In this document: piece by piece, positions 12,961 to 36,002 of the stretch
How positions within the stretch are numbered: the first letter of the stretch is position 1
Layout: each line of letters begins with the position of its first letter
Assembly (NCBI GenBank): GCA_900258555.1
Contig: LT984857.1
Location: forward strand, 385,795 to 449,794
DNA: 64,000 nucleotides
Direction of reading: 5' to 3'
DNA from: an uncultured Desulfobacterium sp.
Lineage (GTDB): Bacteria; Desulfobacterota; DSM-4660; Desulfatiglandales; Desulfatiglandaceae
Notes under the pieces: model-generated
Databases searched by the model: none
Seen by the model: the letters and a program-made list of their open reading frames with translations, nothing else
Told to the model about the DNA's origin: nothing
Made by a program: the position numbers and the translations under genes

Positions 12961-13869
12961 CTAATTCATTTCCCGTGAAATATGTGCAGAGGCCTGGCAG
13001 GCGACCCAACCCTCGCGGCCGGGGATTTCCCTTTGTAAAATTGCTGAATTTCCGATTCTATCCGACGATTCAAGCAGACTGCCCAAGGGCCTAAAAGACA
13101 CACCCAATGACCGGGCGGCAGTTATAAAGCGCCCAAACATTTTCTGACAGGAAATGCCCTCGACCTCTGCGTGTATGGTCAGGACATTGGGCCTGTCCTG
13201 GTCGAGGAGGGACAGGATATAATCATTGTAGTTTTCATCTGATAAACCGTTGTGTCCGATCACCTCGTCATAGGTGGGCAGTGTCACCGGAATCTGGGGT
13301 TGCCTGAGCGCCGCTCCGTTTACAACAGGCAGGAAGACGGTCTTTCCACGGCAGTCACTGTTGTAGACAAATGGAAAGCCGGCCTTTGACTGGAGGACGA
13401 GATCGTTACACTTCCATCCAGGTACTGCGGAACATGTCGGAGGCCGACCTATGATATCAGTCAATGCGTCAAGGCCCTGCCTTATGGAGGAGTAGATCTC
13501 AAGCGACGACATCCTGTCTATTGCCGCCTGCCATTTGTAGTGATCCCATGCATGAAGCCCTATTTCATGTCCGTCCGCCGCTGTGTTTCTAAGGACATGG
13601 CCAAGCCTCCTGCCTATATTCGGCCCAGGGCCCAATGTCCCTTTGAAAATAATGTCCCAGCCATAGAGGCCGGCGGATCTGCTGCGTAACATCTTCCAGA
13701 AAAAGGCGGGTCTAATTAAGCGCATGACATGTCTGCCCATGTTATCCGGGCCGACTGAAAAAAAGAAGGTCGCCAGGATATTGTTGTCTCCAAGGAGTCG
13801 CAACAGATTGGGTACACCGTCCCTGGTTCCCCTGTAAGTATCTACGTCAATTCTAAGCCCTATGATCAT
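12961..13869 (-). CDS. arnD: 4-deoxy-4-formamido-L-arabinose-phosphoundecaprenol deformylase
   Basis: NodB-type polysaccharide deacetylase that removes the formyl group from undecaprenyl-phosphate-linked formamido-arabinose in the inner membrane, committing it to export. [20 protein letters not shown] at the start carries the metal-binding Asp, [12 protein letters not shown] and [15 protein letters not shown] supply the paired His and further family residues, and LTIHAEVEG the last catalytic His. The ATG at 13869 gives 302 residues, the family's normal length, and overlaps the arnA stop as ATGA; a longer open frame upstream lies inside arnA and is not used. Fourth gene of the arn operon. Confidence 0.9.
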
Positions 13870-15935
13870 GTAGTGCTTCCGGTGCTCAGGAGCATTTTTA
13901 AAAATGACGCAAACTCCTTGTTGTCCTGGCTTTCGCAGGCCACATCCGGCCTTTCGCACCGTAAGGCCTCCTTGAGAAAGAAATCCAGGGTCTGCTCTAC
14001 TGAGTGCTCCATCGCTACGGTAGGACTCCAGTTCAACAATCTCATTGCGTTTCGGATGCTGGGCCTCCTGTGCTGTACATCCTGATATCCCTTACCGTAG
14101 TAAGACATGCTCTCAACCTCTTTATATCCCGCAAATGGGGGAAAATTTGACCTGAGCGGATGGACCTGAAATTTTGCAACCAGCATTTCAGCCAGTTCCC
14201 TGATGCTGAGCTCGTTTGTCGGATTTCCAATGTTGATTATCTGTCCGTTACAAACCCCGCCCTTATTCTCTATTATGCGAAAAAGGCACTCCACTCCGTC
14301 GCTCACGTCCGTAAAACATCTCTTCTGCCTGCCGCCGTCAATGAGCTGGATTGGGGTCCCTTCCACCAGGTTCAAAATCAGTTGTGTAATGGCCCGCGAG
14401 CTCCCGATGCGCGCAGAGGTAAGGCTGTCAAGCCTGGGGCCGATCCAATTGAAGGGCCGGAACAGGGTAAACTCAAGACCATGCTGATGACCATATGCCC
14501 ATATAACCCTGTCCAGCAGTTGCTTGGAACAGGAATATATCCATCTCTGCATACGTATGGGGCCAAGGACCAGCCTGGAATGGTCTTCATTGAATTCATC
14601 TTCCTCGCACATACCATAGACTTCAGAGGTTGAGGGAAAGATGATCCTTTTGTTGTATTTCACGCAATAGCGCACCACCCTGAGGTTTTCCTCGAAATCC
14701 AGCTCAAACACCCTTAAGGGATTGCGTGTATATTCTATGGGTGTGGCAATAGCGACCAGAGGCAGGACGATATCGCACTTTCTGATGTGATATTCTATCC
14801 ATTCGCGGTGTATTGATATGTCACCCTCATCAAAATGAAACCCCGGCCTGTCTACAAAACGACCAATACTGTCTGCGTTGAGATCCATGCCGTGGACCTC
14901 GTATCTGTTGCTTTCAAGAAGGCGCTCGCTCAAGGCATTGCCGATGAATCCGTTTACACCCAGGATCAGGACACTCTTCTTTTCTACAGGAGTAAACCTT
15001 TCCACACGCCTGCCAAGGATCATGCCGGGGACAAGGCCGAGCTCCCTGGCAAGCTGTGCTCCTGTCATATACACCCCGCCTTCAATCTGTCCGAAATCCA
15101 CCCTCACAGCCCCTCTTCCGCAGACGATTACCAGAGGGTCTGCCGTCAGGACTGCGCCGGGGCTTAACACCGGGTTGTCATCTTCTGTTTCACTTTCACT
15201 GACAGCCCATACCAGGTATTTCCGGTCCCCCGCGTGACTGAATGCGCCAGGATAGGGTCTGGTGACTGCACGGACAAGATCCCTTATCTCCTGCGCAGAG
15301 CGTCTCCAGTCTATCTTGCCGTCTTCCGGACCACGGCCTCCGTAATAACTTGCCTGTGAATGATCCTGGGGCTGTCTTGGGGCTGCACCCTTCTTTATTA
15401 AGGGCAGGACCTCATCCAGCATGACGGAAGAGGCCTGGGCCGCCTTCCGGTGAAGAGACCTGGCAGTGTCATCAGCCGATATCATTATCTTTTTCTGGGC
15501 GACGATATCGCCGTCATCGGGCCGCGGGGTCATGTAATGAAGCGTCACCCCGGTTTCCTCTTCACCGTTTACCAGCACCCAGTTGATCGGACAGCGGCCG
15601 CGATACCTGGGCAGAAGCGAGCCGTGGAGATTCAGGCATCCGACAGGGGGGATATTAAGGATCTCTTTCTTCACCATGTTGCGATAATAAAAGGAAAATA
15701 TGATATCAGGCGCAATATCCCTGATCTTTTGGACCCAGATGGGATGATTGATATCCTCCGGCGCAAATACCGGGATGCCCCTGGATGCGGCAAGCTCGGA
15801 GACGGAATCAAACCAGATGGTTTCACCCGGATCTTCCGTGTGGGTAAAGACTGCTGCGATCTCAAAGCCGTTTCTTAAAAGGGCCTCGATACCGATGCAG
15901 CCGATGTTGTGATAGGCCAGGACAATAGCTTTCAT
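13866..15935 (-). CDS. arnA: Bifunctional UDP-L-Ara4N formyltransferase / UDP-glucuronate decarboxylase
   Basis: The 689-residue fusion has an N-terminal formyltransferase domain (about 1-305), with [19 protein letters not shown] and the [13 protein letters not shown] motif for formyl-tetrahydrofolate-dependent formylation, and a C-terminal short-chain dehydrogenase domain (about 315-660) that oxidatively decarboxylates UDP-glucuronate, with the NAD motif [11 protein letters not shown], Ser in FPSTSEVYG and the Tyr-x3-Lys pair in [11 protein letters not shown]. Both activities act in the cytoplasm on either side of ArnB. About 30 residues longer than the enteric ArnA, at the C-terminus. It begins 26 bases after arnC and overlaps arnD by ATGA. 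Confidence 0.92.
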
Positions 15936-15961: not shown

Positions 15962-16966
15962 TCAGGCGGACCTGCGGCTTTTGTTGTTCAATAATTCAAG
16001 GCTTGAACCCTGTTTCTGTATGCCTCTTCCCAATACCTGCTGAACGAAATATCTGGGACGGGCCCTTACGTCTTTGTAGATCCGGCCGATGTATTCACCC
16101 ATCAATCCCATACCGATGAACTGGGCACCGATAAATATGAAAAGAATCGCAAAAAGGGTGAAGACACCCTGGGCTGACCAGCGCGGACCGTATATGAGCC
16201 TCATAAGGAAGAGAAATGCGCCGAAGCCCATGCCTGTGATGGATATGACAGCGCCTATCACACTCAACAGACGCAGTGGGAATGTGGTCATGCTGGTCAT
16301 GAGATCGAACTGGAGGTTGACAAGCTTCCACAGACTATACTTTGATTTTCCATTGGAACGCTTGTCATGCCTGACCTCGATCTCTGTGGTGTTTCTGGCA
16401 AAGCTGTTGGCAAGTATCGGGATAAATGTGCTCCGCTCATGACACATCAGCATGGCGTCCACAACATGCCTGCGGTAAGATCTAAGCATACACCCGTAAT
16501 CGTGCATCATAACGCCTGTGGCCTTCTGCACGGTCTTGTTGACCAGAAAAGAACTTAGCTTACGGAAAATGGTATCGGCCCTGTTCAGCCGCACGCTTCC
16601 GACCACATCAAATCCCTTTTCGATTTCATTTATCAGTTTGGGGATCTCTTCAGGCGGGTTTTGCAAGTCTGCATCAAGTGTAACAATGACTTCGCCCTTT
16701 GACTCTTCAAACCCTGCCATCACAGCCGCGTGCTGGCCGTAGTTCCTGTTCAGAAACACGCCTATGACCTTTCCCTGGTTTTCAAAGACCGCATTTGAAA
16801 TTATCTCCGGAGATCTGTCGCGGCTGCCGTCGTCTACAAGGATAAGCTCGTATGGCCTTTCAATGCTGTTGCACACCAAAAGGCACTTGCAGATCAGTTC
16901 ATCCAGGTTTTCCTGCTCATTATATACAGGGACAACAACTGATAAGTACGGGCCGTTTTTTGTCAT
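15962..16966 (-). CDS. arnC: Undecaprenyl-phosphate 4-deoxy-4-formamido-L-arabinose transferase
   Basis: The 334-residue family 2 glycosyltransferase has an N-terminal catalytic domain ([17 protein letters not shown], then [10 protein letters not shown] and the DxD-type [16 protein letters not shown]) and two C-terminal membrane helices (about 230-255 and 265-290). It loads UDP-formamido-arabinose onto undecaprenyl phosphate at the cytoplasmic face. AAGGAGG lies seven bases before the ATG, within the 3' end of arnB, and the genes overlap by four bases. Its place between arnB and arnA matches the enteric order; by itself the sequence would also fit other undecaprenyl-phosphate GT2 enzymes. Confidence 0.9.
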
Positions 16967-18111
16967 ACCAGCACCTCCTTTATGGTTTTAACCACATCGT
17001 CCACATCATCGTCCGTCATGTCCGGGAAAAGCGGCAAAGAGCATATCCTGTCGGAATTCCATTCAGTATAGGGCAGCATGCCGCGACGCATACCCATATG
17101 CTCCGTGTAATACCTCTGAAGATGCACGGCCAGGAAGTGGATGCCTGTGCCGATATTTCTCTGCTTCATTCTCTCCATGAATTCATCCCTGCCAAGGCCT
17201 GCCCTTTCAGTGTTAAGGCGGATGATGAACAGGTGCCAGGAGTGTTTTATGGGATAAGGTGGGTCTGCAAGGGGCAGGATTTCATCTATCTCTGAGAGCC
17301 GCTCGCGGTATCTCATCGCAAGCTCGGTCCTCTTTGCGTTAAACTGATCTACGCGCGCAAGCTGGCTCAGCCCAAGGGCTGCCGAGATGTCCGTCAAATT
17401 ATACTTGTAGCCCGGCTCCAGGACCTGGGCCTGGGGTGAGCGGCCCTGCATGTCCCTGTCATAGGCGTCCACGCCGAGGCCGTGAAACTTAAGCCTGCGA
17501 ATACGATCAAGCAGCCCCTGATCATTGGAGCAGAACATGCCCCCTTCGCCTGTTGTAATATTCTTGATCGGGTGAAAGGAGAATATGGAAGTACCCTCCC
17601 TGCCTACACGCACACCCCTGTATTCCGTACCCACTGCATGGGCCGCATCCTCTACAAGCATGAGTCCTTTTTCCGCGGCCATCTTGCGGATAGGCCCCAT
17701 ATCCGCTGCTGAGCCTGCAAAGTGCACCGGGATGATAAGCCTTGTGCGGTCGCTCAGGCACGGTTTTATGGTATCGGATGATACCATCAGTGTGTCCCTG
17801 TCAATATCGGCGAATACGGGGGTTGCGCCTGCAAGGACGATCAGGTTTACGGTCGAAACCCAGGTCATGGAGGGCGTTATCACCTCATCTCCCGGCCCGA
17901 TGCCGAGGGCCTGCAACACTAAGTGCATCCCCGCCGTGGCTGAGGTGAGCGCAACTGAGCCGGGGCAGCCTATGTAATCTGAAAATCTATTTTCAAACTC
18001 CGCTGCCTTTTGGCCTGTGGTGACCCACTTGGAGCGGAGAACATCACAGACTGCTGCTATATCTGCGTCAGAAATCGCAGGACGTGAAAAAGGTAGAAAC
18101 GTTTTTCTCAT
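16963..18111 (-). CDS. arnB: UDP-4-amino-4-deoxy-L-arabinose aminotransferase
   Basis: The 382-residue PLP enzyme of the DegT/DnrJ/EryC1 family uses glutamate to aminate the UDP-4-keto sugar made by ArnA. The cofactor lysine lies in [15 protein letters not shown], with [12 protein letters not shown] forming the ring-stacking part of the site. Its length matches the enteric ArnB (about 380). It is the first arn gene after a 226-base gap that carries a palindrome and repeats, so the operon promoter is probably there. Confidence 0.9.
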
Positions 18112-18337: not shown

Positions 18338-19417
18338 TCAATCCACATGCATCATCAAGTAGGTGCCGACCAGGGTGAAGATCGCATTAGCCATCCATAC
18401 CGAGACAACCGGAGGAATGACACCTGCCATACCAAGTGACCTGAAAAACCCCAGAAAAGACATATAGATCACACAGAAAAACAGGCCTATGGCCACGGCC
18501 AGGGACGGCCCCCCTTTTTTCAGGATAAGTGAAATGGGGACGCCTATCACCACCATGAGCAGAACTATAAATGGAAATGCCGTTTTTAAATGTAGATCAA
18601 CCGAGTATTGCGTGACATCAACACCTTCTTGTTTCATCCTTTCAACAAACCGCTTCAACTGCCAGTAACCCATCTCTTCCGGGTCTTTTTCTTCCCTTAA
18701 AAATGTATCCGGCGTTTCTGGTAATTCCAGCTCAAATTGATCGAATTTATTGGTGCTGTATTCCTTATTACCCGATTTTGACTGTAGAATAATTCCATCT
18801 GTAATATTCCATTTTCCATTTTCCCATATTCCTTCCCTGCCGTCAATTTTTCTTATCAACTTAAACGAATCGTCAAAGAAATACAGGCTCGGCTCGACCA
18901 TTACCTGTCTGCGTCTGTCAAAGTGCCTCATCCAGTAAATGCACTTTTTACCTCTGTACCATATGTCAGAGCATTTTCTGGAGCTTCCCTGATCCTGCTT
19001 TTTGACCTCAACCCTCCAAATCTTATTGGACCTGGAACTGGTATAAGGGACGATAACCTCCGAACATAGAAACAGACCGACAGCCAGTATCATAGATGTA
19101 ATGATGATCGGTCTGGAGATTATCCATATGTTGAGTCCACAGCCGTTTAGGAGCATGATATGGTTATTCTTTTTCATTAAAGAAAACATAATAATTATAG
19201 ACATAAGTGTGGCAGGGGGCAGCATCTGTACGATTATCAGGGGTATCTTAAAGGCAAAGTAGGTAAGGGCCGGGCTTATTCCGACATTCGCCTCTATCAG
19301 GTTATCAATGGCCCCGATAGAATCAATCAACAGGTAAAGGAATACAAAGATCACCTCACAGATAGTCAGAAGCTTTAAGAATTCCCTGACCAGATATTTG
19401 CTCAGTGTGCTTTGCAT
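18338..19417 (-). CDS. lptG: LPS export ABC transporter permease LptG
   Basis: The 359-residue membrane protein of the LptF/LptG family has three N-terminal helices, a periplasmic beta-jellyroll (about 125-265) and three C-terminal helices. With LptF and LptB it extracts lipopolysaccharide from the inner membrane and passes it to LptC. The periplasmic part shows GIWENGKWNITDGIILQ, typical of LptG. Usually lptF lies just upstream; here the upstream gene, 36 bases away, is an ArnT-like glycosyltransferase, so this permease is uncoupled from lptF. That could be reordering, or a dedicated permease for a glycolipid made by the upstream genes. Confidence 0.82.
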   Translation of the reverse strand: MQSTLSKYLVREFLKLLTICEVIFVFLYLLIDSIGAIDNLIEANVGISPALTYFAFKIPLIIVQMLPPATLMSIIIMFSLMKKNNHIMLLNGCGLNIWIISRPIIITSMILAVGLFLCSEVIVPYTSSRSNKIWRVEVKKQDQGSSRKCSDIWYRGKKCIYWMRHFDRRRQVMVEPSLYFFDDSFKLIRKIDGREGIWENGKWNITDGIILQSKSGNKEYSTNKFDQFELELPETPDTFLREEKDPEEMGYWQLKRFVERMKQEGVDVTQYSVDLHLKTAFPFIVLLMVVIGVPISLILKKGGPSLAVAIGLFFCVIYMSFLGFFRSLGMAGVIPPVVSVWMANAIFTLVGTYLMMHVD

Positions 19418-19453
19418 AGTTTAAAGTCCAAAAAGAAGTGTTTGGCTGAATCC

Positions 19454-21274
19454 TTATCCTTTGCGTGCCTTACGGGGCAACAGAAGCAATGGAGGGGATG
19501 TCAATGCCTCCTCCGGCCAGGGTTCAAGGGCTGTTCTGGAAAAGAATTCCTTATTGGCGACCATGAGATTTGTCCTGTTTGCCGCGACAGGAAATAAGAT
19601 ACCCCATTTTTTTATTCTGGACCAGTACTTATGGCTCATATTTACCAGAAGGGGGCCGTCAGAGGCAAGGGATCTGAGGCTATCCTCTCCCTTAAGGAAA
19701 AAAAGTGTATGGTCTTTGGATGTGTCGCTGTGCGCCAGCTCCCCTACCTCGTCTACAAGTATTATCCTGCGCCTGGTGTAAAAGCTCAGGCTCTGGTCAT
19801 AGGTGTGCCATTCTGCGATTTTTATATCAGCAGGCAGGGGGTCGGGCATGGCCTTGACAAGGCCGCTGACTTTCCTGTGCGTGGTGATAAGCCCGGCGCT
19901 CTTACCCAACGTGGGCATGATGAGCACCAGGATCAGTCCTACGGACACAAGGGCCAGCCTTCTCCTAAAAATGGAAAGGATTACCAGACCGCATCCTGCT
20001 GACAATAAGCACTGGTTCAGGAAAACTAATGCTTCTATCTTTGAAAAAGGCACGGTATCCTGGTACCTGGCTGCATAAGGTAAAGATATAATCAGTCCGA
20101 CAATACAGACCACCGTGATTGCAAGACACCAGCCAGTGGCCGGGCCAAACAGTTCCTTTCCGTTGAAGTGCCGGGCCGTCAGAATAGCCAGGGCAGGGTA
20201 AGAGGGGAGGATGTAAGGAAGGAGCTTGCATTTGCTCAGGCTGAAAAGGCCCACTACTGCGATAACCCATATGACCAGGAACAGGATAGCCTGGGATTGC
20301 CGTTTATCCGCAAGCTGATCAGAAAGAGCCGGATTCTGCCTGTTTTCTCGGGTCCGGGCTGATACTGTGAGAGGAGATTTTAATATATCAAGACCAGATC
20401 TTATGGCATGGACCATAACCGGGAATAAAAATGCTCCCCAGAACATCATGCCCAATGGCAGGGTGGCGGGAAAGAACCAGAAGGGTTTAAGGTGCTCTTC
20501 TCCTGAAAGGCGGGCAAAATGCTGTACGACTATGTAAAAGTGCCAGAATTCAGGGTTTCGTTGTACTACTAAAAAATGCCATGGCGCGACAATGACTGCA
20601 AAGATCACAGGGCCAGGCCACCAGGCCATGCGGCCCATGGCGTCCAGGTTTCGAAGGGCCGATAAAAACAGCAGTAAGATAACTACCGTCAGTACTATGG
20701 CCGCAAGGCCCTTTGCCATGGTCGCCAGACCCAGGCAGGCCCATGCCAGGGTGTACCAGCGTCTGGCGGTGGTAGCTGCCTCTGTTGTATAACCCAGCCA
20801 CCATGCCCCCCAGGTTGCTGTAAGGCAGAGGCTGAAGACCATATCAATAATAGGGAGGCGCGCCAGCACAAAAGGCTCTAGACTGGTAAGATAAATCCAT
20901 CCGGCGGTCAGCCCTATCCGGCGCCCCAAAACGCGCCGACCAAGGCTGATTACAAGTAAGACACTTAGAAGACCGGCAACTGCCGGAACCGCACGCACAG
21001 CAAGCTCTTTTTCGCCTAGCAGGGCAATGGATGCGGCCACCAGCCAGTAAAACAGGGGTGGCTTTTCAAGATACTTTACATAGTTAAGATGAGGGGTAAC
21101 AAAATCTCCGCTCTCCAGCATCTCCCTTGCGATCTCTGCATAACGGCCTTCATCAGGATCGGCCAATGGGTACTCTCCCAGAAAACCGAAGTACATGAGG
21201 ACCGCTAAAAGTAAAATAAAGCAAATGCCTGTGGCCCAGCGGCAATTCGCAGGAATGAATAAGTTAGACGTCAT
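19454..21274 (-). CDS. ArnT-like GT-C glycosyltransferase (third copy)
   Basis: The 606-residue membrane protein has about 12 hydrophobic helices and the first-loop signature LADPDEGRYAEIAREMLESG, then KYLEKPPLFYWL, keeping the catalytic acidic pair of the ArnT/PMT superfamily. FWHFYIVVQHFARL and KPFWFFPATLPLGM correspond to the ArnT region EPDFW...PFWF. It probably transfers a sugar from a polyprenyl phosphate to a lipid or polysaccharide on the periplasmic face. No clear ribosome binding site precedes the ATG. It lies between an MMPL exporter and lptG on the same strand, suggesting modification of an exported lipid. The substrate cannot be deduced. Confidence 0.8.
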   Translation of the reverse strand: MTSNLFIPANCRWATGICFILLLAVLMYFGFLGEYPLADPDEGRYAEIAREMLESGDFVTPHLNYVKYLEKPPLFYWLVAASIALLGEKELAVRAVPAVAGLLSVLLVISLGRRVLGRRIGLTAGWIYLTSLEPFVLARLPIIDMVFSLCLTATWGAWWLGYTTEAATTARRWYTLAWACLGLATMAKGLAAIVLTVVILLLFLSALRNLDAMGRMAWWPGPVIFAVIVAPWHFLVVQRNPEFWHFYIVVQHFARLSGEEHLKPFWFFPATLPLGMMFWGAFLFPVMVHAIRSGLDILKSPLTVSARTRENRQNPALSDQLADKRQSQAILFLVIWVIAVVGLFSLSKCKLLPYILPSYPALAILTARHFNGKELFGPATGWCLAITVVCIVGLIISLPYAARYQDTVPFSKIEALVFLNQCLLSAGCGLVILSIFRRRLALVSVGLILVLIMPTLGKSAGLITTHRKVSGLVKAMPDPLPADIKIAEWHTYDQSLSFYTRRRIILVDEVGELAHSDTSKDHTLFFLKGEDSLRSLASDGPLLVNMSHKYWSRIKKWGILFPVAANRTNLMVANKEFFSRTALEPWPEEALTSPPLLLLPRKARKG

Positions 21275-21331
21275 TTTTTTGTGTCATGAGTTAGAGGATA
21301 ATTTGAAGGGAATTTTTATAACTCAATATCG

Positions 21332-23494
21332 TTATTTGTCAAACAGTGCTGCTATCTCAGCCTCAATTTCGGCCTCTCCCTTAATATGCTCAGCAGGGAG
21401 CACCCTATCCAACCAGCGCGGCACCCACCAGTTGACATCTCCTAGCAGTTCCATGGTAGCCGGCACCAGCACAATACGCACTACTGTGGCATCAACCAGT
21501 ATGGCGCTTGCAAGCCCCAGCCCTATCTGCTTTATGTATACATTGGGATCAAAGATGAAGACCCCGAACACAAACACCATGATCGCAGCCGCTGCGGTGA
21601 TGACGCGCGCTGTAACAGCTAATCCGTCTGCCACGGCAAGACTGTTGTCTCTGGTTCGCATGTATTCTTCTCGAATCCGGGAAAGTAGAAAGACCTCATA
21701 GTCCATTGAAAGACCGAATAAAATGGCAAACATTATCATCGGCACAAATGCAGGCACAGGTGTTTCGGGGATGTTCAACAGACGGCCCAGCCAGGTGCCG
21801 TTAACCGCGTATGACATCACGCCGTAAGCTGCGGCGATAGACAAAAGATTCATAATGCCTGCCTTAAGCGCCACCAATGGAGACCGGAAAACAGTGGTAA
21901 GAAGTAGAAATGACAGGAGCACCACGGTAATAATAAATAAAGGCAGGCGCCTTAAGATGTAATCTGCATGGTCAATGGAGATCGCCGTGAATCCGCCGAC
22001 CAAGACCTTTACCCCGGTGCCCGCAACAACCCCTGGAATAATATCGTTTCGCAGTGTCTTTACGAGCTGTTGAGTCTGCTTTGACTGCGGCTTTGATGCG
22101 GGATAAATGTTTACAAGGAAGGTATCCGCCGTCTGATTGAAACCGACCGGCAACACAAAAGCGATGTCGTCAGTGGTCTGAAGCTTTGCGCTCAGCTTCA
22201 TGAGGGTGGACTGAATATTGCCTGCGCCCCGCGCATCAACCAGCAGTAACAGAGGGCCGTTAAAGCCCGGCCCGAAGCCTGCGGTCATCATGTCGTAGGC
22301 CCGGCGTGATGTTTCTTTTTTTGGGTTGTTACCGTCATCCGGGAATCCGAAGCGCAGGTTTAAAAGCGGTAGTGTAATGATCAACAGCACAAACGCACCG
22401 GCAAAAAAGATCATCCATGGCCGGCGTTGAACTACACGGCTCCAGCGATACCAAAAGCCGTGATCTTCGCCTTCGCCTCTTGCTCTGATGGAGGGGATAC
22501 GGAATCTGTCAATGTTGCGCCCGACAAAACCGAGGATAGCCGGAAGCAGTGTAAGGGAGGCGGCCAGCATGACAACCACCGCAATCATTGACAGGCAAAG
22601 CACTCCATACAGATATCCCAGTTTCATTGCCAGCATGCCAAGCAGCGAGATAACCACGGTGCATCCGGCAAACAGTACGGCGCGACCGGCTGTAGCCATG
22701 GCCGTGATCGCGGCCACCCGAGGAGATAAGCCTTGATCTAAGGCGTTACGATAGCGGGTGATGATGAAGAGCGCATAGTCAATGCCTACGCCCAGACCGA
22801 TCATGGTTGCAACGGTCACCGCCCAGTCCGGTGTTTCGAAAACGCGCGACAGGATGCCGCCAAGGGCTGAGCCGATTCCAAGACCGAAAAGCGCTGTCAG
22901 TATTGGCAGTCCCATTGCAAGCACTGAACCAAAGGCAACAAGCAGAATGAGTGCGGAAAAGCCGAGAGCAATGGTCTCGCCGCCTAAGGACCGTGAATCA
23001 ACGAATGTTGACACCTCGATCTCAAGTCCGTTTCGCGTGCCCGGATTAACCAGGGCCAGAAACTTTTTTTGGTAGTCGGCATCAAGGTTTGCAATCTTGT
23101 CTATGGTGCGGTCCAAATTGACTACGGCAAATGCCGTGGCGCCGTTTTTTGCAATCTGGTTGGCCCCTTCAGGTGTAAGTGGGCTTACCACTGAAGAGAC
23201 ATGAGGAAATTCCGCGACTTTTTTGAGCAAAGCCTCAATAGTCTCTTTGTTTACTTGCGTATTAAGCTTGCTGCCGGCAGAGAAAACAATGTTTATGGAA
23301 TCGCCCTTACGGGCGGGAAAGCGCTCATCAAGAAGATCAAAGACTTTTGTGGCCTCTTCTTGAGGGGTCTGATAGTCGGCACGGTATTTAGAGGGATATT
23401 TTCCATGGAAGGCGATAACTGTCCCAAGAACGATAATCCATATTGCGAGAACCAACCAGCGCCGGCGAAGGCATATGTCAGCAAGATAGATCAA
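21332..23494 (-). CDS. MMPL/RND-type lipid exporter
   Basis: The 720-residue protein is built as two repeats, each with one membrane helix, a periplasmic domain and five further helices. Signatures are GLGVGIDYALFIITRYR in the first half and LFGLSMDYEVFLLSRIREEY in the second; the Asp/Tyr positions serve proton coupling in this family. MMPL proteins move lipids or glycolipids out of the inner membrane. The start codon is TTG at 23494, overlapping the stop of the acyltransferase gene (TTGA), so the two are translationally coupled. The pairing with an acyltransferase and glycosyltransferases recalls mycobacterial glycolipid loci, though homology to those was not tested. Confidence 0.85.
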   Translation of the reverse strand: MIYLADICLRRRWLVLAIWIIVLGTVIAFHGKYPSKYRADYQTPQEEATKVFDLLDERFPARKGDSINIVFSAGSKLNTQVNKETIEALLKKVAEFPHVSSVVSPLTPEGANQIAKNGATAFAVVNLDRTIDKIANLDADYQKKFLALVNPGTRNGLEIEVSTFVDSRSLGGETIALGFSALILLVAFGSVLAMGLPILTALFGLGIGSALGGILSRVFETPDWAVTVATMIGLGVGIDYALFIITRYRNALDQGLSPRVAAITAMATAGRAVLFAGCTVVISLLGMLAMKLGYLYGVLCLSMIAVVVMLAASLTLLPAILGFVGRNIDRFRIPSIRARGEGEDHGFWYRWSRVVQRRPWMIFFAGAFVLLIITLPLLNLRFGFPDDGNNPKKETSRRAYDMMTAGFGPGFNGPLLLLVDARGAGNIQSTLMKLSAKLQTTDDIAFVLPVGFNQTADTFLVNIYPASKPQSKQTQQLVKTLRNDIIPGVVAGTGVKVLVGGFTAISIDHADYILRRLPLFIITVVLLSFLLLTTVFRSPLVALKAGIMNLLSIAAAYGVMSYAVNGTWLGRLLNIPETPVPAFVPMIMFAILFGLSMDYEVFLLSRIREEYMRTRDNSLAVADGLAVTARVITAAAAIMVFVFGVFIFDPNVYIKQIGLGLASAILVDATVVRIVLVPATMELLGDVNWWVPRWLDRVLPAEHIKGEAEIEAEIAALFDK

Positions 23495-24264
23495 CTATCG
23501 GCCCCGTGGTGAGCGGCTATGGTCTGTTCCATCCATGAAGCGGCCCTTTCAGACATTTCGGCCAACTCCTCCTTCGGGAAACCTTTTTCTCCGTTGGGTA
23601 CCGGGGGAAATATCGGCTCACCAATGACCAATCTTACTGTTATCCAGTTGGGCCTCATCTGTTTTCCGAAAAGACGCCGGCGTTTCAGGATATAAACCAT
23701 CGGGACTATCGGGGCCTGGTGCAGATAAGACTGATAGAATGCGCCGGGACGGAAACGGTGAATGGTCTGACTTAAGTGCACCAGTTCTCCTTCAGGAAGA
23801 AAATGGACATGATGACCTTGAGCCAAGGCCTCTCCAATAGGTCTTGTTATCATATTAAAACCCATTGAAGTTGCAGGGATGGGGAAGGCCCTTAGGAATC
23901 TTAGTATCCTGCGGATAAAGGGAACTTCATAATTTCGCTGGGCAACAGTGATGTACAGGCGCTTGGGGAAAAATACATAACTGGCAAAGACGGTATCAAA
24001 ATAATGGCAGTGGTTTGAAATTGTAATGCAGCCTCTTTTACCAAATATCTTTTTATTCTTGCGGCCTTCAATACGAAAGCTGAAAAAGATACCACAGAAT
24101 GTCACTATAACGAAACAAATGACAAATAATGGAAAAATCAGCAGCTCGAACCAGAAGTCAAGGTATATGAACCTGAAGGGCTTAGTGAAATCTATCTTTT
24201 TTGTGTTTTTTCGAATTTGTATGATCTTATCTTCAGGAATCTCCGGTCTTAATTTCAGCTCCAT
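23491..24264 (-). CDS. PlsC-type 1-acylglycerol-3-phosphate acyltransferase family protein
   Basis: The 257-residue acyltransferase has an N-terminal membrane helix (ELLIFPLFVICFVIVTF), the catalytic NH-x4-D motif in ISNHCHYFDTVFAS, and the substrate motif FLPEGELVHLS. It should transfer an acyl chain to a lysophospholipid or a glycolipid on the cytoplasmic face. It lies between a GT4 glycosyltransferase (39 bases upstream) and the MMPL exporter (overlapping), so it more likely acylates a special lipid than makes bulk phosphatidic acid (inference). Confidence 0.83.
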   Translation of the reverse strand: MELKLRPEIPEDKIIQIRKNTKKIDFTKPFRFIYLDFWFELLIFPLFVICFVIVTFCGIFFSFRIEGRKNKKIFGKRGCITISNHCHYFDTVFASYVFFPKRLYITVAQRNYEVPFIRRILRFLRAFPIPATSMGFNMITRPIGEALAQGHHVHFLPEGELVHLSQTIHRFRPGAFYQSYLHQAPIVPMVYILKRRRLFGKQMRPNWITVRLVIGEPIFPPVPNGEKGFPKEELAEMSERAASWMEQTIAAHHGADS

Positions 24265-24303
24265 AAATATAAACCTAAATCATACCAGTAGGCTGTCCGG
24301 GAA

Positions 24304-25467
24304 TTAAAATCTTCGGACTACAACCGTGTTTGGAAAAATGGCAAATTCCGGACGGGTTCTCAATACTTCCCTGTGAAACGCCTCCATGTCGTCCATGCAC
24401 TTATCAAATCTGTATTGCTCAGCCATCTGCAATACATCCTGTTTCAATTCGCGAAGAAGCACCCTTCTTTCATACCAGAAATCAATCTTTGCTGCCAGCG
24501 CGTCCGCATCATCCATTTCAAAGATAAAACGCTCATCTAAAGCAAACTGAGTTGATTGACTATGTGGAGAATTTCCAATAAGGCAAGGAAGCCCGCATCC
24601 GACGGCCTCCAAACAGGACAGGCCCTCCAGTTCTATTATGGAAGGATGAATATATATATCTGAAGTATTCAAATAGAGAAGCTTGTCTCCTTCGGTGACA
24701 TATTCAATTAAAGGCGTAAGGGGAAGTTCAGCACCCATCTTTCTGAGTTGTTCGGTATTATTACCTTTTCCACATAGAAGGAGTTGTATATTGTCTTTGT
24801 ATTTTGATCTTTGAACTGCTTCAATAAGCAGTACCTGCCTTTTTTCATTTGAATGTCTGCCTACATTAACAATGACGAAATGATCCGAAAACCAGTCAGG
24901 CCTGGGTTTGTCCACATGATGGTATGTCTTTGGTATGCCATTGGAAATAATTTTGAAATCGGCCTTGCTCCCATGGTCTCTCAGTATATTTGCTGCATGT
25001 TTTGAGGGGCAGTGAACCGCATCCACATGTTTAAAGAGACAGAAATTAAAAATACAATAGAGCATCTTCTCTATCAAAGGCCTATCCTTCTTCCCCATAG
25101 CCGCTATTATGTTCTCAGGCTGGATATGACAGGCACCTATGACAGGAATTCCCATTCCTTTGGCAATTTTTACAGCATTACGGGCCAATAAAAACGGAAA
25201 CTGTATTTGGACAAGATCAGCCCCTTCAAAGGCCTTTTTTAGAATATCTCTTTTGCCTATCCCAAATAGGAAGCCCATACTTTCTAAAGATTGCCGGACA
25301 AAAGGGAGATAAAATCCCGGAATGGTGTAAAAATCACCGTCATATTCACCGGTGGTCACAATAGTAATCTTATGCCCTCGCTTTTTGAGCTCTTCGACCA
25401 TCCGTTTTGTGGAAACGACCGCGCCGTTTCCCTCAGTCCAACTGTCTATAACAATAACTATTTTCAT
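24304..25467 (-). CDS. Family 4 glycosyltransferase, possibly glycolipid-forming
   Basis: The 387-residue GT-B enzyme has an N-terminal acceptor domain beginning MKIVIVIDSWTEGNGAVVST, a donor domain beginning at FVIVNVGRHSNEKRQ, and the donor-binding stretch IYIHPSIIELEGLSCLEA with the E-x7-E type motif. The segment GNSPHSQSTQFALDERFIFE resembles that of diacylglycerol glucosyltransferases (recalled resemblance, not a search). It would add a hexose from a nucleotide sugar to a membrane lipid. It is the first gene of the minus-strand unit GT4-PlsC-MMPL-ArnT-like-LptG and is divergent from mprF. Confidence 0.78.
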   Translation of the reverse strand: MKIVIVIDSWTEGNGAVVSTKRMVEELKKRGHKITIVTTGEYDGDFYTIPGFYLPFVRQSLESMGFLFGIGKRDILKKAFEGADLVQIQFPFLLARNAVKIAKGMGIPVIGACHIQPENIIAAMGKKDRPLIEKMLYCIFNFCLFKHVDAVHCPSKHAANILRDHGSKADFKIISNGIPKTYHHVDKPRPDWFSDHFVIVNVGRHSNEKRQVLLIEAVQRSKYKDNIQLLLCGKGNNTEQLRKMGAELPLTPLIEYVTEGDKLLYLNTSDIYIHPSIIELEGLSCLEAVGCGLPCLIGNSPHSQSTQFALDERFIFEMDDADALAAKIDFWYERRVLLRELKQDVLQMAEQYRFDKCMDDMEAFHREVLRTRPEFAIFPNTVVVRRF

Positions 25468-25846
25468 TATGATGACTTGGGCTTGGAGAGCAACATCCCA
25501 TAGAAACTCCGTATAAAGATTATGTTCAGATTCGAGGTGGTAAGATACACGTCTATGATTTCAAAAATCTTTCAGAAGTATTACAAGTTGGTAATATTAT
25601 GCCGGGAACTAATATGGCAGGGAATTGCCTGCAGGCAGATAGGCTGTGAATATGAATATCCGCAGACATATAAGTTGAAGGCTATCGTTTATTCATATAT
25701 ATTTTGTGATCAAACAATACATTGACAAGCAAGCGGGCGAGGGCCAGATGATGCAAGCCGTGATGCGGCCTTTTAAATATTGAAACCGCCTGCCTCAGCC
25801 TTCTACCTGAGCGGCTGAGCATTTACCACAAGGGTTTCGGATTGGC
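25468..25846. other. Divergent intergenic region between GT4 gene and mprF
   Basis: This 379-base AT-rich stretch must hold promoters for both membrane-lipid units. It contains a perfect 12-bp palindrome TGCCTGCAGGCA at 25626-25637, a TTGACA at 25722-25727 on the plus strand with only a poor -10 match after it, and a hairpin in the mprF leader pairing CTCAGCC (25794-25800) with GGCTGAG (25813-25819). A 67-codon open frame at 25522-25725 lacks a ribosome binding site and is not accepted as a gene. Confidence 0.5.
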
Positions 25847-28402
25847 ATGAAAAAGAAGCTGTTTTCATTCATTGGTCCTGCTGTAGGCCTTGTGGTCTTT
25901 TCCGCAGCCCTGTGGGTGCTGGAGCGTGAGCTCAGCAGGTTCCACCTTCGCGATATCCTAAACGAGATGCGATCCATACCCGCCTCACAGATAGCGCTTG
26001 CAATGCTCTTGACAGGGCTTAATTATGCGGTGCTTACAGCATATGACATGCTGGGATTCAGCTATATCGGAAAGACACTTAGCAAGGCGCGTATAGCTCT
26101 GGCCTCATTTATCGCTTATGCCTTCAGCAATAATCTCGGCTTCATGTCTCTTTCCGGCAACGCCATACGCTTCAGACTTTATACTGCATGGGGGCTTTCG
26201 GCCCTGGATATCACAAGGCTCGTCTCCTTCATCAGCATATTGACCTTCTGGCTGGGCCTGATCGCCATATGCGCTGTTGTCTTTATAATAGAGCCGGTTC
26301 CGATTCCGCCGTCATTTGATCTGCCCTTTTCTTCTATACGCTTTATTGGTGTTTTTTTTGCCGGTGTGCTTGTGGCCTATCTGTTATGGACAGGTCTTCG
26401 CAAAAGGCCTTTAACCATCAGGGACTGGGAGCTTGAGATCCCCCGTGTCAGGCTTTCCCTGCCGCTGATTATCACCGCCTGCACTGACTGGGTGCTCTAT
26501 GGTTCGGTTCTCTATGTGCTGATGCCTGTTAACCATTCTGTTTCCTTCATGGTTTTTTTAAGCGTCATCCTGGTGGCGCAGTTGGCAGGGATGCTCAGTA
26601 ATGTTCCAGGGGGGATCGGTGTCTTTGAGACCGCAATAATCCTGCTCATGCCTGGCATTGAAACCTCTAGGGTCATAGGAATACTGCTGGTCTTCCGGGC
26701 CATCTACTATCTGATGCCTCTTGCGATTGCAGCACTGCTTTTCGGGGGTTATGAACTGCTGCAACGCAAGGAGAAGGTTGCGGGTTTTGCCCTTGTGATC
26801 CGGCAGGCGGGGGCTGCGATTATGCCCCATGTGGCGTCCCTAATCACATTTCTTTCAGGCGCGGTGCTGCTGTTCTCAGGTGCGACACCTGCAATTGAAT
26901 CACGCCTTAAATGGCTCATGCTTTTCATGCCATTGCCGGTGATGGAAATTTCGCACCTGCTGGGGAGCATTGTGGGTATGGCGCTGTTAATCCTCGCCTG
27001 GGGCATATACCGCAGGCTTGACGCCGCCTATCACATGGTGCTTTATCTGTTTTGCGCAGGCATTGCCTTGTCCCTGATAAAGGGGGCGGACTATGAAGAG
27101 GCCGTTATCATTTTGGTGATGACTGTCCTGTTTATCCCATGCCGCAGGCATTTCTACCGGAAGACGGCCTTTATGCATGAGCCCTTTTCTCCGGGCTGGG
27201 CCATGGCAATAGTGCTTGTGCTTTTATCCTCCATCTGGGTGGGGATGCTCTCATACCGGCATGTGGACTATTCCAATGATCTGTGGTGGCAGTTCAGTTT
27301 TCACGGTCATGCCTCCCGTTTCATGCGGGCCTGTGTGGGAGTGATTGCCTTGCTGCTTATTTTCGGCCTGCTCAGACTACTTCGCGGCCCAAGGCTTAAG
27401 GATATAACGCCCAGGCCGGATGACCTTGAGAAGGCTCGCCTGGTAGTCAACTCCTTCCCCCGCTCCTATGCACAACTTGCGCTCTTGGGCGATAAATCCT
27501 TTCTGTTCAACGATGAGGGGAGCGCCTTTATCATGTATGCGGTGCAGGGGAGCAGTTGGGTTGCAATGGGCGACCCTGTCGGACCACGCGAGGCGGCATC
27601 AGAGCTCCTCTGGGAGTTTGTCGAAATCTGCGACAAGCACAATGGCAGGGCCGTGTTTTACGAGGTGGGGCAGGAAATTCTCCCTCTATACCTTGACCTC
27701 GGCATGACGCTGTTGAAACTCGGCGAGGAAGGGCGCGTTTATCTGGAGAACTTCAATCTGCAGGGCAGCTCCAAAAGATCTCTTAGAAACACTGTCAACA
27801 GACTTGACAAGGAAGGCTGTGGATTTGAAATCCTGCTTCCGGAAGCGGTTTCAGGTATTATTTCACGCTTACATGAAATATCAGACGCCTGGCTTACAGA
27901 AAAGACTACTCGCGAAAAGCGTTTTTCCCTGGGCTTTTTCAGCCCGGAATATATTCGGCAGTTTCCCGTGGCAGTGGTCAAAAAAGACGGTTTGATCGTG
28001 GCATTTGCAAATATCTGGTCAGGCATGGCAGGAGGGGAGCTTTCAATAGACCTGATGCGCTATCTGCCTTCAGCTCCCCATGGCCTGATGGACTATCTGT
28101 TCATCAAACTGATGGACTGGGGAAGACAAAACGGCTACCGCTATTTTTGCCTGGGCATGGCGCCTTTTTCAGGTTTTGAAGACCGCGCCCTTGCCCCGGT
28201 ATGGAGCAAGATCGGCTCATTTCTATTCAGACATGGTGAGAATTTTTACAACTTCCGCGGGCTGCGTCAATACAAGGAGAAGTTCGATCCTGTCTGGGAG
28301 CCCAGGTATCTGGCGGCCCCAAGCAGGCTCTCGCTCCCTATTGTCCTGAAGGATATCTCTGCCCTGGTCTCCGGCGGTGTAAAAGGTGTGATCGCGAAAT
28401 GA
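25847..28402 (+). CDS. mprF: Bifunctional lysylphosphatidylglycerol synthase/flippase MprF
   Basis: The 851-residue protein is of normal family length: an N-terminal flippase part with about 12-14 membrane helices (GFMSLSGNAIRFRLY, NVPGGIGVFETAI) and a C-terminal cytosolic synthase domain (about residue 525 onward) of the DUF2156 type (GSSWVAMGDPVGP, KRSLRNTVNRL, GMAPFSGFEDRA). It transfers lysine (or alanine) from charged tRNA to phosphatidylglycerol and flips the product outward, reducing the negative charge of the inner membrane. It overlaps acvB by four bases. The amino acid used cannot be read from the sequence; the AcvB partner argues for lysine. Confidence 0.9.
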   Translation: MKKKLFSFIGPAVGLVVFSAALWVLERELSRFHLRDILNEMRSIPASQIALAMLLTGLNYAVLTAYDMLGFSYIGKTLSKARIALASFIAYAFSNNLGFMSLSGNAIRFRLYTAWGLSALDITRLVSFISILTFWLGLIAICAVVFIIEPVPIPPSFDLPFSSIRFIGVFFAGVLVAYLLWTGLRKRPLTIRDWELEIPRVRLSLPLIITACTDWVLYGSVLYVLMPVNHSVSFMVFLSVILVAQLAGMLSNVPGGIGVFETAIILLMPGIETSRVIGILLVFRAIYYLMPLAIAALLFGGYELLQRKEKVAGFALVIRQAGAAIMPHVASLITFLSGAVLLFSGATPAIESRLKWLMLFMPLPVMEISHLLGSIVGMALLILAWGIYRRLDAAYHMVLYLFCAGIALSLIKGADYEEAVIILVMTVLFIPCRRHFYRKTAFMHEPFSPGWAMAIVLVLLSSIWVGMLSYRHVDYSNDLWWQFSFHGHASRFMRACVGVIALLLIFGLLRLLRGPRLKDITPRPDDLEKARLVVNSFPRSYAQLALLGDKSFLFNDEGSAFIMYAVQGSSWVAMGDPVGPREAASELLWEFVEICDKHNGRAVFYEVGQEILPLYLDLGMTLLKLGEEGRVYLENFNLQGSSKRSLRNTVNRLDKEGCGFEILLPEAVSGIISRLHEISDAWLTEKTTREKRFSLGFFSPEYIRQFPVAVVKKDGLIVAFANIWSGMAGGELSIDLMRYLPSAPHGLMDYLFIKLMDWGRQNGYRYFCLGMAPFSGFEDRALAPVWSKIGSFLFRHGENFYNFRGLRQYKEKFDPVWEPRYLAAPSRLSLPIVLKDISALVSGGVKGVIAK

Positions 28403-29808
28403 AGTCCTTTCGAAATATTGCATATGCAGCGTTTGTGATTTGTGCGGTTTTGCTGGTGAGTTGTTGCGGGTGCAGGGATGTGTGTCGGATCAGCCGACAC
28501 GACAGCGGCGAGTGGGGACCTTACGAACTCTGGGAACCAGCAGGCACTGTGAGGGGACTCATCTTTTTCTTCTCCGACTCGCAAGGCCTGATACCCGCTG
28601 ACAGGGATGCTGCCCGCGAACTTGCAAGGCTTGGCGCTGCGGTCGCGCTTGTGCCTACGGATGTCTATCTTTCACGTATAGACAATGATACTGACCCCGA
28701 TGGCTGTCTTTATCTGCCGGGCCCGGTGGAATGGACCAGCCATTATCTACAAGAGTATCTCGCTGTGCCGGAGTATAAAAGGCCCCTGCTGCTCGGTCGG
28801 GCCCTTGGCGCAGGCATTGTATACGCCTTACTCGCACAGGGCTCTTCGCAATCATTTGCAGGCGGCATGAGTGTTGACCTCTCATCTGTGATCACCATCA
28901 AACACCCCTTGTGCAGTCTCGCGCCCATTTACCGCTCAGAAAAAGGACTGGCTCTGGACAGCAATGCACACCTGTGCGGGTGGTGGTGCGCTGCTGTGAC
29001 CAAAACCCCCGACAGGGACACCACGGATTTTGTCAAGGCCGTTTCAGGGAGAAATAAAGAAGTGAAGCCGGAAATAGAAGGTCCTGGGACATTGGCCTCC
29101 CTTGTATCCCGGGTCTTCGCCCCTTGCCTGGCAGAAAAGCCAAACGGAAAAGATGCAACCGTTGCCGGTGCTCTTGTAGAGGTGTCAGGGAAAAGTACGC
29201 AAAAGGCCCTTGCCGTTATCTACTCAGGTGACGGCGGCTGGAGCGATATAGACCGGGAGCTCGCCGATTATCTTGCCGCCCATGACATTGCGGTAGTGGG
29301 TGTTAATTGCCTGAGTTATTTCTGGAAAAAACGCACTCCGGATCAGGTGGGTCAAGACCTTGCCTGGCTACTTGAGAGATATTTTTCAAATTGGGGAATG
29401 GAACAAGCCGTGATTGTGGGCTATTCATTCGGCGCGGATATCCTCCCCCCTGCATATAACAGACTACCCCAATACCTGAAGGCAAAGGTGGTGCAGATCA
29501 GTCTACTTGCTCCCAGCAGGGATGCCGATTTTGAATTTCATATCTCAGGTTGGCTCGACTCCGGCCCGTCAAAGGAATCCATTCCCCTTGGGCCTGAAAT
29601 TACAGGTATAGACAAAGGACTCTTACAGTGCTTTTACGGTGAAGAAGAGGAGGCGGATACCCTCTGCACAGATCCTGAGATGAAGGGTGCTGAGACCATG
29701 AGGACCGCGGGCAGCCATCACTTTGACGGCAATTACAGCGCACTGGGAGATAAGATTATTGAAGGGTTCTACCGTCGTGCGGAAGCGCTGAAAATCAGGG
29801 GCCGGTAA
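28399..29808 (+). CDS. acvB: AcvB/VirJ-family lysylphosphatidylglycerol hydrolase
   Basis: The 469-residue periplasmic protein has an N-terminal signal with a lipobox-like LVSC near residue 18-21. It has two alpha/beta-hydrolase-like halves; the C-terminal VirJ-like half holds LAVIYSGDGGWSDIDREL, the nucleophile elbow GYSFGADILPPAYNRL with catalytic Ser, and a late His in AGSHHFDGNY. AcvB-family proteins in Agrobacterium and Rhizobium hydrolyse lysylphosphatidylglycerol made by the adjacent lysyltransferase, and the same pairing with ATGA overlap is present here. The N-terminal half looks less conserved. The gene's 3' end is followed at once by the remnant of a minus-strand gene. Confidence 0.87.
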   Translation: MKSFRNIAYAAFVICAVLLVSCCGCRDVCRISRHDSGEWGPYELWEPAGTVRGLIFFFSDSQGLIPADRDAARELARLGAAVALVPTDVYLSRIDNDTDPDGCLYLPGPVEWTSHYLQEYLAVPEYKRPLLLGRALGAGIVYALLAQGSSQSFAGGMSVDLSSVITIKHPLCSLAPIYRSEKGLALDSNAHLCGWWCAAVTKTPDRDTTDFVKAVSGRNKEVKPEIEGPGTLASLVSRVFAPCLAEKPNGKDATVAGALVEVSGKSTQKALAVIYSGDGGWSDIDRELADYLAAHDIAVVGVNCLSYFWKKRTPDQVGQDLAWLLERYFSNWGMEQAVIVGYSFGADILPPAYNRLPQYLKAKVVQISLLAPSRDADFEFHISGWLDSGPSKESIPLGPEITGIDKGLLQCFYGEEEEADTLCTDPEMKGAETMRTAGSHHFDGNYSALGDKIIEGFYRRAEALKIRGR

Positions 29809-29814
29809 TACCTG

Positions 29815-29870
29815 AATCATCCTTCAGGCGGTAAATGGCCTTGAGCGTGCCTCCGGCAGTCCATCGGCCC
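29815..29870 (-). pseudogene. Truncated copy of the 3' end of the NlpC/P60-like gene
   Basis: Read on the minus strand this stretch encodes WTAGGTLKAIYRLKDD, matching WTAGRTLKAIYRLRED at the C-terminus of the NlpC/P60-like protein encoded at 36003-36788. By hand alignment about 50 bases (29821-29872 against 36069-36120) agree with roughly eight mismatches. Upstream sequence of that gene is missing: the similarity stops at the edge of the palindromic repeat at 29871. The intact gene lies just beyond the efflux cassette in the same orientation, so this is a leftover of duplication or insertion. Confidence 0.75.
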
Positions 29871-29964
29871 AAGATTTTGGACTGCGTTATCGGTCGGAAT
29901 TCCTTGTACGACGTGTTGGTAATACGCCTCCGCGGATTCTTCCCTCTGGCCTTGCCAAAATCTT
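29871..29964. repeat. Palindromic intergenic repeat, copy 1
   Basis: AAGATTTTGG at 29871-29880 is perfectly inverted as CCAAAATCTT at 29955-29964. The core contains CTGCGTT, CTTGTACGACGT, ATACGCCTCCGCG and GGCCTTG in the same order as the matching parts of the element at 46541-46653. The left arm abuts the gene remnant exactly. It looks like a member of a dispersed hairpin-forming repeat family. Confidence 0.65.
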
Positions 29965-29987
29965 TTTCTTGAAGTCTATAGTATTTT

Positions 29988-30012
29988 GGTTAATATGTTC
30001 AACACATTAACC
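29988..30012. promoter_or_regulatory. 25-bp palindrome, candidate repressor operator
   Basis: GGTTAAT-A-TGTT-C-AACA-C-ATTAACC is symmetric about base 30000 with a single mismatched pair. Length and symmetry suit a TetR-type operator, and it lies upstream of the first efflux cassette, which has no adjacent regulator gene. Confidence 0.5.
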
Positions 30013-30033
30013 TGACTCACATACAAGGGATTT

Positions 30034-30096
30034 CTCGCCACGCCATAGCTTCAGCGAAGGCGAGGCACCCCGGAAGTTCACGCCCGTGTCGGGCGT
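30034..30096 (+). other. Two stem-loops in the efflux cassette leader
   Basis: CTCGCC (30034-30039) pairs with GGCGAG (30059-30064), and ACGCCCG (30080-30086) pairs perfectly with CGGGCGT (30090-30096) across a TGT loop. They lie between the palindromic operator candidate and the outer-membrane efflux gene. Neither is followed by a T run, so a role as a simple terminator is unlikely. Confidence 0.45.
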
Positions 30097-30202
30097 ACAC
30101 ATAGCGTTCAACTAGATGCGCGGAAAGACCGCCGCGTACTTGTCAACCCGGCCGTTCTGCGTGAGAAAACAACACGAGAAGCCTTGTAAAAGAGATGCTC
30201 AA

Positions 30203-31690: not shown

Positions 31691-32787
31691 AGAGCAAGAA
31701 TTATATCACCCTAATTGTGGCTGTTTTCATTTCCGGCATGGTCCTTGCTTATTGGTATATGAACCACCGGGGGGCGGCCTCCGGAAACCTTGTCTCCTCC
31801 AATTACTCGCCTGCCGCCCAGCCGCTGATTACCACGGCTCAGCCGGCTCTGCGTACATTCACGCTCCGTGTCCCCTGGATCGGCACGGTAGAATCCCAGG
31901 CTTCAGTTGAATTGACTGCTCTCACGGCGGGGCGTATCGAGGTCATCCATGCCGAGGATCAGAGCCATATCGAAAAGGGCAAGCTTGTGATGCGGCTGGG
32001 AGGACCGCAGGTTGATGGGGTACGCGAAAAACTTTCGGCCGAGATCGAATCCCTGGGATCACAAATTGAGCCTGCTCAGCAAACGGTGGAACGGCTCAAA
32101 GAGAGTCTGAAGGCGCAGTTGGCCACCAAGGATCAGGTGGCGGCGGCTCAGGATGCGCAAGCCAGGCTTGAGTTTCAATTGCGCGAAACCCGGCTGAGTT
32201 TGAAAACCTTTGAAAATCAAGTTGGTATATCCGCGCCGATAAGTGGAATCTTTACAAACCGGCGTGTCAGCGTAGGACAGGATGTCAATGCCGGACAGGT
32301 CGTTGGCGAGATCATAGACACTGGTCGGCTGCGCATCGTGGCTTCCATCTTCCCACCGCAGGGCATCAAGCTTCAAGGCAAGGAGGCCACCATTCGCCTG
32401 GACGAAAACCAGTCCTTGACCAGTCTTGTCCGAAGCGTTCTGCCACGGGCTTTGAGCACAGGTGCGGTGACGGTATGGATTGAAGGCCCACAAATTGACA
32501 CACAACTGCGTCCCGGCCAGATGGTCGGTGGGGATATTGTCGTCGAGGTCAGGCCTCATACCCTGGCGGTGCCGGAATCGGCAATCGTTTATGACTCAAA
32601 AGAACATCCTTATCTGTTCGTCAGTAAAGACAGTTCCTATGAGCAGCTCAGCATACAAGTGGGTATGGAGCAAGACGGTTGGGTTGAGGTCCTTTCAGGG
32701 CTGAAACAAGACCAATTCGTGGTCACCCAAGGCGCCTACGAACTTTTCTACAGACAATTCAATGAGCAATTCAAGGTGCAGGATTAG
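31687..32787 (+). CDS. RND efflux periplasmic adaptor (membrane fusion protein)
   Basis: The 366-residue adaptor has an N-terminal membrane anchor (YITLIVAVFISGMVLAYWYM), a barrel-sandwich hybrid domain split by a short helical hairpin (about 110-170), with the second half at ISAPISGIFTNRRVSVGQDV, then a beta-barrel and a membrane-proximal domain. It links the RND permease and the outer membrane factor across the periplasm. It overlaps the upstream gene by ATGA and precedes the permease by three bases, so all three are one transcript. No metal-binding His/Met N-terminus is evident that would mark it as a copper-type adaptor. Confidence 0.87.
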   Translation: MKSKNYITLIVAVFISGMVLAYWYMNHRGAASGNLVSSNYSPAAQPLITTAQPALRTFTLRVPWIGTVESQASVELTALTAGRIEVIHAEDQSHIEKGKLVMRLGGPQVDGVREKLSAEIESLGSQIEPAQQTVERLKESLKAQLATKDQVAAAQDAQARLEFQLRETRLSLKTFENQVGISAPISGIFTNRRVSVGQDVNAGQVVGEIIDTGRLRIVASIFPPQGIKLQGKEATIRLDENQSLTSLVRSVLPRALSTGAVTVWIEGPQIDTQLRPGQMVGGDIVVEVRPHTLAVPESAIVYDSKEHPYLFVSKDSSYEQLSIQVGMEQDGWVEVLSGLKQDQFVVTQGAYELFYRQFNEQFKVQD

Positions 32788-32790
32788 GTC

Positions 32791-35856: not shown

Positions 35857-36002
35857 CAAGAACCGGAGGAAAAGAGAAGACGTCGTAACAGAATCGGGTA
35901 GCCAAGGTACGTGCACAATTCCAAGGGCCTTTACGACTGAGGCTCATGGGAATTGCTACACGTTTGACCGGAGAGGGTTTGTAAGTGCCTGCCAGTAATG
36001 AT

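Follow-up and report, generated by a model that had tools for sequence, protein, structure and literature searches.

Gene content and layout of the locus

The window analyzed here, meaning the whole stretch of 64,000 nucleotides from an uncultured Desulfobacterium sp., carries on its minus strand, between positions 25467 and 18338, a run of five genes whose assignments all agree with their Pfam domains. These are a GT4 glycosyltransferase resembling CapJ and diacylglycerol glucosyltransferases (24304..25467; 387 aa; PF13439 and PF00534), a PlsC-type acyltransferase (23491..24264; 257 aa; PF01553), an MMPL/RND exporter (21332..23494; 720 aa; PF03176, 9e-76), a second ArnT-type GT-C transferase termed ArnT1 (19454..21274; 606 aa; PMT and Arnt_C domains) and an LptG paralogue (18338..19417; 359 aa; PF03739, 1e-76). 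Neighbouring genes are separated by 39, -4, 57 and 36 bases, and the TTG start of the MMPL gene shares 4 bases with the TGA stop of the acyltransferase gene (TTGA), so that the coordinates, distances and domains bear out the original prediction of a one-strand set with gaps of at most 57 bases and a TTGA coupling. The catalytic signatures are whole: HX4D and PEG in the PlsC-type enzyme, EX7E in the GT4 and DExRYAE in ArnT1, which also has an EKP motif. The MMPL protein holds both of its D-Y pairs (GIDY at 237 and SMDY from 596), which together with PF03176 identify it as an MMPL exporter.

The run continues beyond the genes on which the original prediction was made. On the same strand, 226 bases past LptG, lie arnB, arnC, arnA, arnD and a second arnT (18111-11308), which brings the Arn genes B, C, A, D and T together. 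ArnA, the bifunctional enzyme (13866..15935; PRK08125, 1099.3 bits against a cut-off of 777), and the deformylase ArnD (12961..13959; PRK15394, 397.3 against 382) exceed their equivalog cut-offs. The aminotransferase ArnB (16963..18111; PRK11658, 572.9 against 631), the undecaprenyl-phosphate Ara4FN transferase ArnC (15962..16966; PRK10714, 494.8 against 529) and ArnT2, a lipid A 4-amino-4-deoxy-L-arabinose (Ara4N) transferase (11308..12957; PRK13279, 501.9 against 567), find their best matches in Arn models and score below the cut-off. After arnT2 come a GT-C gene, a gene of 340 aa and an LpxL-type lipid A acyltransferase gene. The first of these (9590-11332, minus strand) is ArnT-like and carries CEGRWAE in place of DExRYAE, with the conserved D gone and Y replaced by W, changes that suggest a different substrate or a lost activity. 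The second (8530-9552, minus strand) has no Pfam match and a counterpart of 66% identity in the sister species (G001); judged by eye, its product resembles a metallophosphoesterase. On the other side, 379 bases upstream of GT4, lies a divergent pair (25847-29808, plus strand) in which mprF, whose 851-aa product is a lysyl-phosphatidylglycerol synthase, has 4 bases in common with a virJ-domain gene. Neither the downstream arn genes nor the mprF-virJ pair nor the lptF-lptG pair described below figured in the original prediction.

For the comparison with other genomes, we divide the run into module A (25467-21332; GT4, PlsC and MMPL, hereafter the trio) and module B (21274-11308; ArnT1 to ArnT2), which meet at 21275-21331. 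A scan of this 57-base gap found no terminator-like site on the minus strand, although promoter and terminator scans performed near chance level. With the short gap and the shared strand, co-transcription of the trio with ArnT1 and some functional link are possible. The GC content and codon use of the trio are not clearly distinct from those of its neighbours, with GC3 low in GT4 only, and we rejected composition as proof of a transfer of the trio.

The GT4-PlsC-MMPL trio and its predicted product

A search with the MMPL protein against 84,980 bacterial and archaeal genomes returned five loci, two of which, both from Kiritimatiellota, carry GT4, PlsC and MMPL genes in the order of the window. 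The orthologues are 51%, 62% and 75% identical, respectively, and the PlsC and MMPL genes likewise share 4 bases. Neither ArnT nor LptG lies near these trios in the stretch read at each locus, and at the longer one the next genes encode LpxA-like and IPP-transferase domains. MMPL proteins of 64-66% identity were also seen in three Acidimicrobiia genomes (L015, L016 and L017), there without GT4 or PlsC. Closer to the host, GT4 was absent from the 147 relatives searched at an E-value limit of 1e-30, PlsC from 394 genomes of the host phylum (limit 1e-20) and MMPL from 98 host relatives (limit 1e-20), and among the 241 genomes sampled from the Kiritimatiellota phylum there was no trio besides the one already known. 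To date, the trio is known from three genomes, the window genome and the two Kiritimatiellota, so the case for its independence is built on few examples.

The pairing of the first two enzymes extends further. A plasmid of Subdoligranulum variabile (OY725840) encodes a GT4 domain (35% identity) followed by a PlsC domain (30%, with HX4D and PEG) in one 629-aa frame, a fusion which indicates that both enzymes very probably work on one product. In Lactobacillus ultunensis, the GT4 homologue adjoins an annotated acyltransferase gene in divergent orientation. Given that the trio is conserved and that GT4 and PlsC are fused elsewhere, it is reasonable to expect that these genes produce an acylated glycolipid and that MMPL exports it, and the trio is probably an imported cassette for the synthesis and export of such a lipid. 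The original prediction of one glycolipid unit thus keeps its GT4, PlsC and MMPL part and loses ArnT and LptG, which occur as a pair without the trio.

As to the lipid that is glycosylated, the catalytic half of the GT4 aligns without gaps over 158 residues, at 40% identity, with PDB 3qhp CapJ, which we take to be Helicobacter pylori HP0421. HP0421/CapJ has been described as a cholesterol alpha-glucosyltransferase that resembles diacylglycerol alpha-glucosyltransferases (PMC10489377), and the glucoside it makes is acylated at the 6' position (PMC10489377, PMC7069968). The likeness to diacylglycerol glucosyltransferases noticed at the outset is accordingly upheld, in the wider sense of a kinship with diacylglycerol and sterol alpha-glucosyltransferases. 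The same match, together with a weak HpnN and BstA similarity of the MMPL protein, raises the alternative that the product of the trio is an acylated glucoside of a sterol or terpenoid, comparable to the cholesteryl 6'-acyl-glucoside of H. pylori and built on an acceptor taken from the environment. We regard this as improbable, since the GT4 has relatives in Lactobacillus and Subdoligranulum, where diacylglycerol glycolipids are usual, and since the C-terminal domain of squalene-hopene cyclase was found neither in the host genome nor in the two Kiritimatiellota genomes. The lack of this domain in the three trio carriers makes a self-made hopanoid acceptor unlikely, and a hopanoid as GT4 acceptor was rejected on this ground. 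Furthermore, acylation in H. pylori is the work of an outer-membrane phospholipase, which is not PlsC-like (PMC7069968). The window enzyme belongs to the PlsC/AGPAT-type superfamily by PF01553 and HX4D; it scores 40.6 bits against the AGPAT model TIGR00530 (cut-off 102.95) and has no match among solved structures.

The site itself was compared with that of the sister species, in which a block of the window (21224..36885) holding module A, mprF-virJ, an RND efflux operon and a 261-aa gene is absent. DNA of G001 aligns to 17024-21223 and to 36886-37276 of the window, and these segments are 147 bases apart in G001 and 15,662 in the window; the G001 assembly is a draft, 83% complete, in which the contig reaches no further than 495 bases upstream of ArnT1. 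A GT-C (PMT_2) gene at 36863..38512 on the minus strand has a G001 orthologue of 69% identity located 13 bases upstream of ArnT1, and is therefore the likely old upstream neighbour of ArnT1. As searches of other relatives did not turn up the trio, a gain in the window genome is likelier than a loss in G001. A 54-base direct repeat of 85% identity lies at 29815-29868, just after virJ, and at 36062-36115, at the end of the 261-aa gene (36003-36788); it flanks the efflux operon, which may have entered separately.

The presence of the divergent mprF-virJ pair (lysyl-phosphatidylglycerol) and of arnBCADT (Ara4N) in one neighbourhood, the former in the same missing block as the trio, brings up a further explanation, in which module A is a lipid-remodelling set co-expressed with module B that aids peptide resistance. 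This is compatible with two separate modules, yet we hold it to be somewhat unlikely: the Kiritimatiellota trios adjoin unrelated genes, and a link to peptide resistance would thus be specific to the host lineage.

The ArnT1-LptG pair and its likely role in LPS export

ArnT1 and LptG are distributed differently from the trio. The ArnT1 orthologue is 75% identical in G001 and 48-53% in other genera, with LptG adjoining each time, and the LptG orthologue in G001 is 83% identical. In G001 the gene order is that of the window (arnT1, lptG, arnB/C, arnA, arnD, arnT2, GT-C, the 340-aa gene and lpxL), and arnB and arnC form a single 717-aa frame (L048:12516-14669, minus strand), a genuine fusion or a sequencing error. 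ArnT1 and LptG adjoin each other in 13 family genomes (G001, G002, G009, G011, G016, G021, G024, G029, G034, G037, G041, G043 and G045), often with arnBCADT alongside, and never with the trio beside them in the listed family genomes. By this comparison, ArnT1-LptG is a resident pair belonging to the aminoarabinose/LPS locus of the lineage.

The original proposal was that a single acylated glycolipid is made, flipped, decorated and exported by the five genes together, LptG serving as the permease, and the single strand, the gaps of at most 57 bases and the lack of a terminator-like site between MMPL and ArnT1 are what speaks for such a pathway. We now consider it very improbable. The trio and ArnT1-LptG are each found without the other, the trio alone in Kiritimatiellota and the pair alone in the host family, so the expected conservation of a five-gene order failed and the five-gene unit was rejected; changing neighbours in relatives are what the original prediction had itself named as evidence against it. 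In addition, arnBCADT follows directly after LptG, and LptG clusters with the only-copy LptGs of relatives that have no trio.

The last point comes from a tree of 56 LptF/LptG proteins, in which the window copy falls into a 24-member clade (clade B; support 100/99) that is separate from, and sister to, the clade of lptF-linked LptGs, and that also contains the ArnT1-linked LptG of G001. The window protein scores 235.0 bits against the LptG model TIGR04408, 5 under the equivalog cut-off of 240, and 115.5 against LptF, and is thus nearer to LptG. An lptG apart from lptF, which had been called unusual, is common in the host family. The proposed search for lptF elsewhere in the genome succeeded, as an ordinary pair of lptF (353869-354951) and a second lptG lies at G000:C4:352682-354951, by which the window LptG was rejected as the sole LPS permease gene of the genome. 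Most family genomes that carry a clade-B lptG have it as the sole lptG found, with lptF on a different contig. From these relationships we infer that the clade-B gene, the window lptG included, most likely serves LPS export, and that the window LptG most likely has the LptF encoded elsewhere as its partner. Additional, highly divergent LptF/LptG-family proteins of 19% identity were noticed in genus g11 (L127:1656-2723 and L128:5080-6147), besides its own LptF and LptG.

One LptG residue may connect this export with aminoarabinose. The position of K34 in Klebsiella was located with an E. coli LptG sequence as reference, and it holds D in both LptGs of the window genome. Within clade B, 15 copies have D at this site, of which 14 adjoin ArnT1 and one (G035) adjoins arnD-arnT, and the remaining nine have H. 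All 15 D copies are in arn-carrying genomes (G035 by virtue of the arnD-arnT on its contig) against 3/9 H copies (Fisher 0.0006), and the genomes of the other six H copies have no arnA match. Klebsiella K34 is equivalent to D31 of Burkholderia cenocepacia, whose LptG exports no LPS without Ara4N unless it carries D31H (PMC5548808). It is therefore conceivable, though in our judgment rather unlikely, that the arnT-adjoining lptG encodes a variant preferring Ara4N-modified LPS, a checkpoint that would couple modification with export. The nine H copies form a single branch, so the D/H split goes back to a single event in evolution. Since lptF-linked LptGs from genomes without an arnA match usually have D as well, D was rejected as a general marker of Ara4N. 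The pattern is thus a lead and not proof. With lptG placed beside arnT and not lptF throughout a family, the question whether LPS export is adjusted to aminoarabinose, for which the genetic demonstration so far comes from Burkholderia, can be put to a natural test.

A probable junction of two modules and its relation to known systems

Taken together, we think it quite probable that the locus is a junction, where an imported acyl-glycolipid cassette abuts a host locus for lipid A aminoarabinose modification and LPS export. The substrates, products and direction of transfer that follow are predictions. On the cytoplasmic face of the inner membrane, the GT4 would glycosylate a lipid alcohol (diacylglycerol or similar), the PlsC-type enzyme would acylate the resulting glycolipid, probably on the sugar, and MMPL would carry the acyl-glycolipid to the periplasmic side by a proton-driven mechanism. 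Separately, ArnB, C, A and D would produce the lipid carrier of Ara4N, ArnT2 and perhaps also ArnT1 would transfer Ara4N or a related sugar to lipid A/core in the periplasm, and the window LptG, most likely joined by the distant LptF, would extract the modified LPS toward the outer membrane.

Read as such, GT4-PlsC(-MMPL) would be a small mobile unit shared by Kiritimatiellota and the host lineage, of which Firmicutes also have the two enzymes, in one case fused, and it predicts an acylated glycolipid with a dedicated exporter that has so far gone unrecognised; our literature searches returned no description of a GT4-PlsC-MMPL cassette or of an arnT-lptG pair. The locus also illustrates how tightly packed same-strand genes can pass for a pathway until genomes are compared.

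Each part resembles a known system and departs from it. Like Mgs and H. pylori CapJ, the window GT4 is a GT4-family enzyme with EX7E and the CapJ-like catalytic half described above, but it is paired with a PlsC-type enzyme and reaches 36.3 bits against the Mgs equivalog NF049988, whose cut-off is 400. The Subdoligranulum fusion matches the window pair in its two domains and in their order, whereas it is a single polypeptide and the 13-kb stretch read around it holds no homologue of the window MMPL. The MMPL protein shares with MmpL3-type exporters both D-Y proton-relay pairs, and its closest solved proteins are MmpL3; in contrast, it is 720 aa long, coupled to GT4 and a PlsC-type enzyme, and scores 236.1 bits against NF052608, the MmpL3 equivalog (trehalose monomycolate exporter), with a cut-off of 1400. 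The arn genes form one run as expected of the lipid A pathway, although here the operon is preceded by a second ArnT and an LptG paralogue, has two more GT-C genes nearby and is followed by an LpxL-type acyltransferase. Finally, the window LptG covers PF03739 in full length and has LptG chains as its nearest solved relatives, as befits the LptG subunit of LptB2FG, but it does not lie beside lptF, and what is an extra copy in this genome is the sole copy found in many of its relatives.
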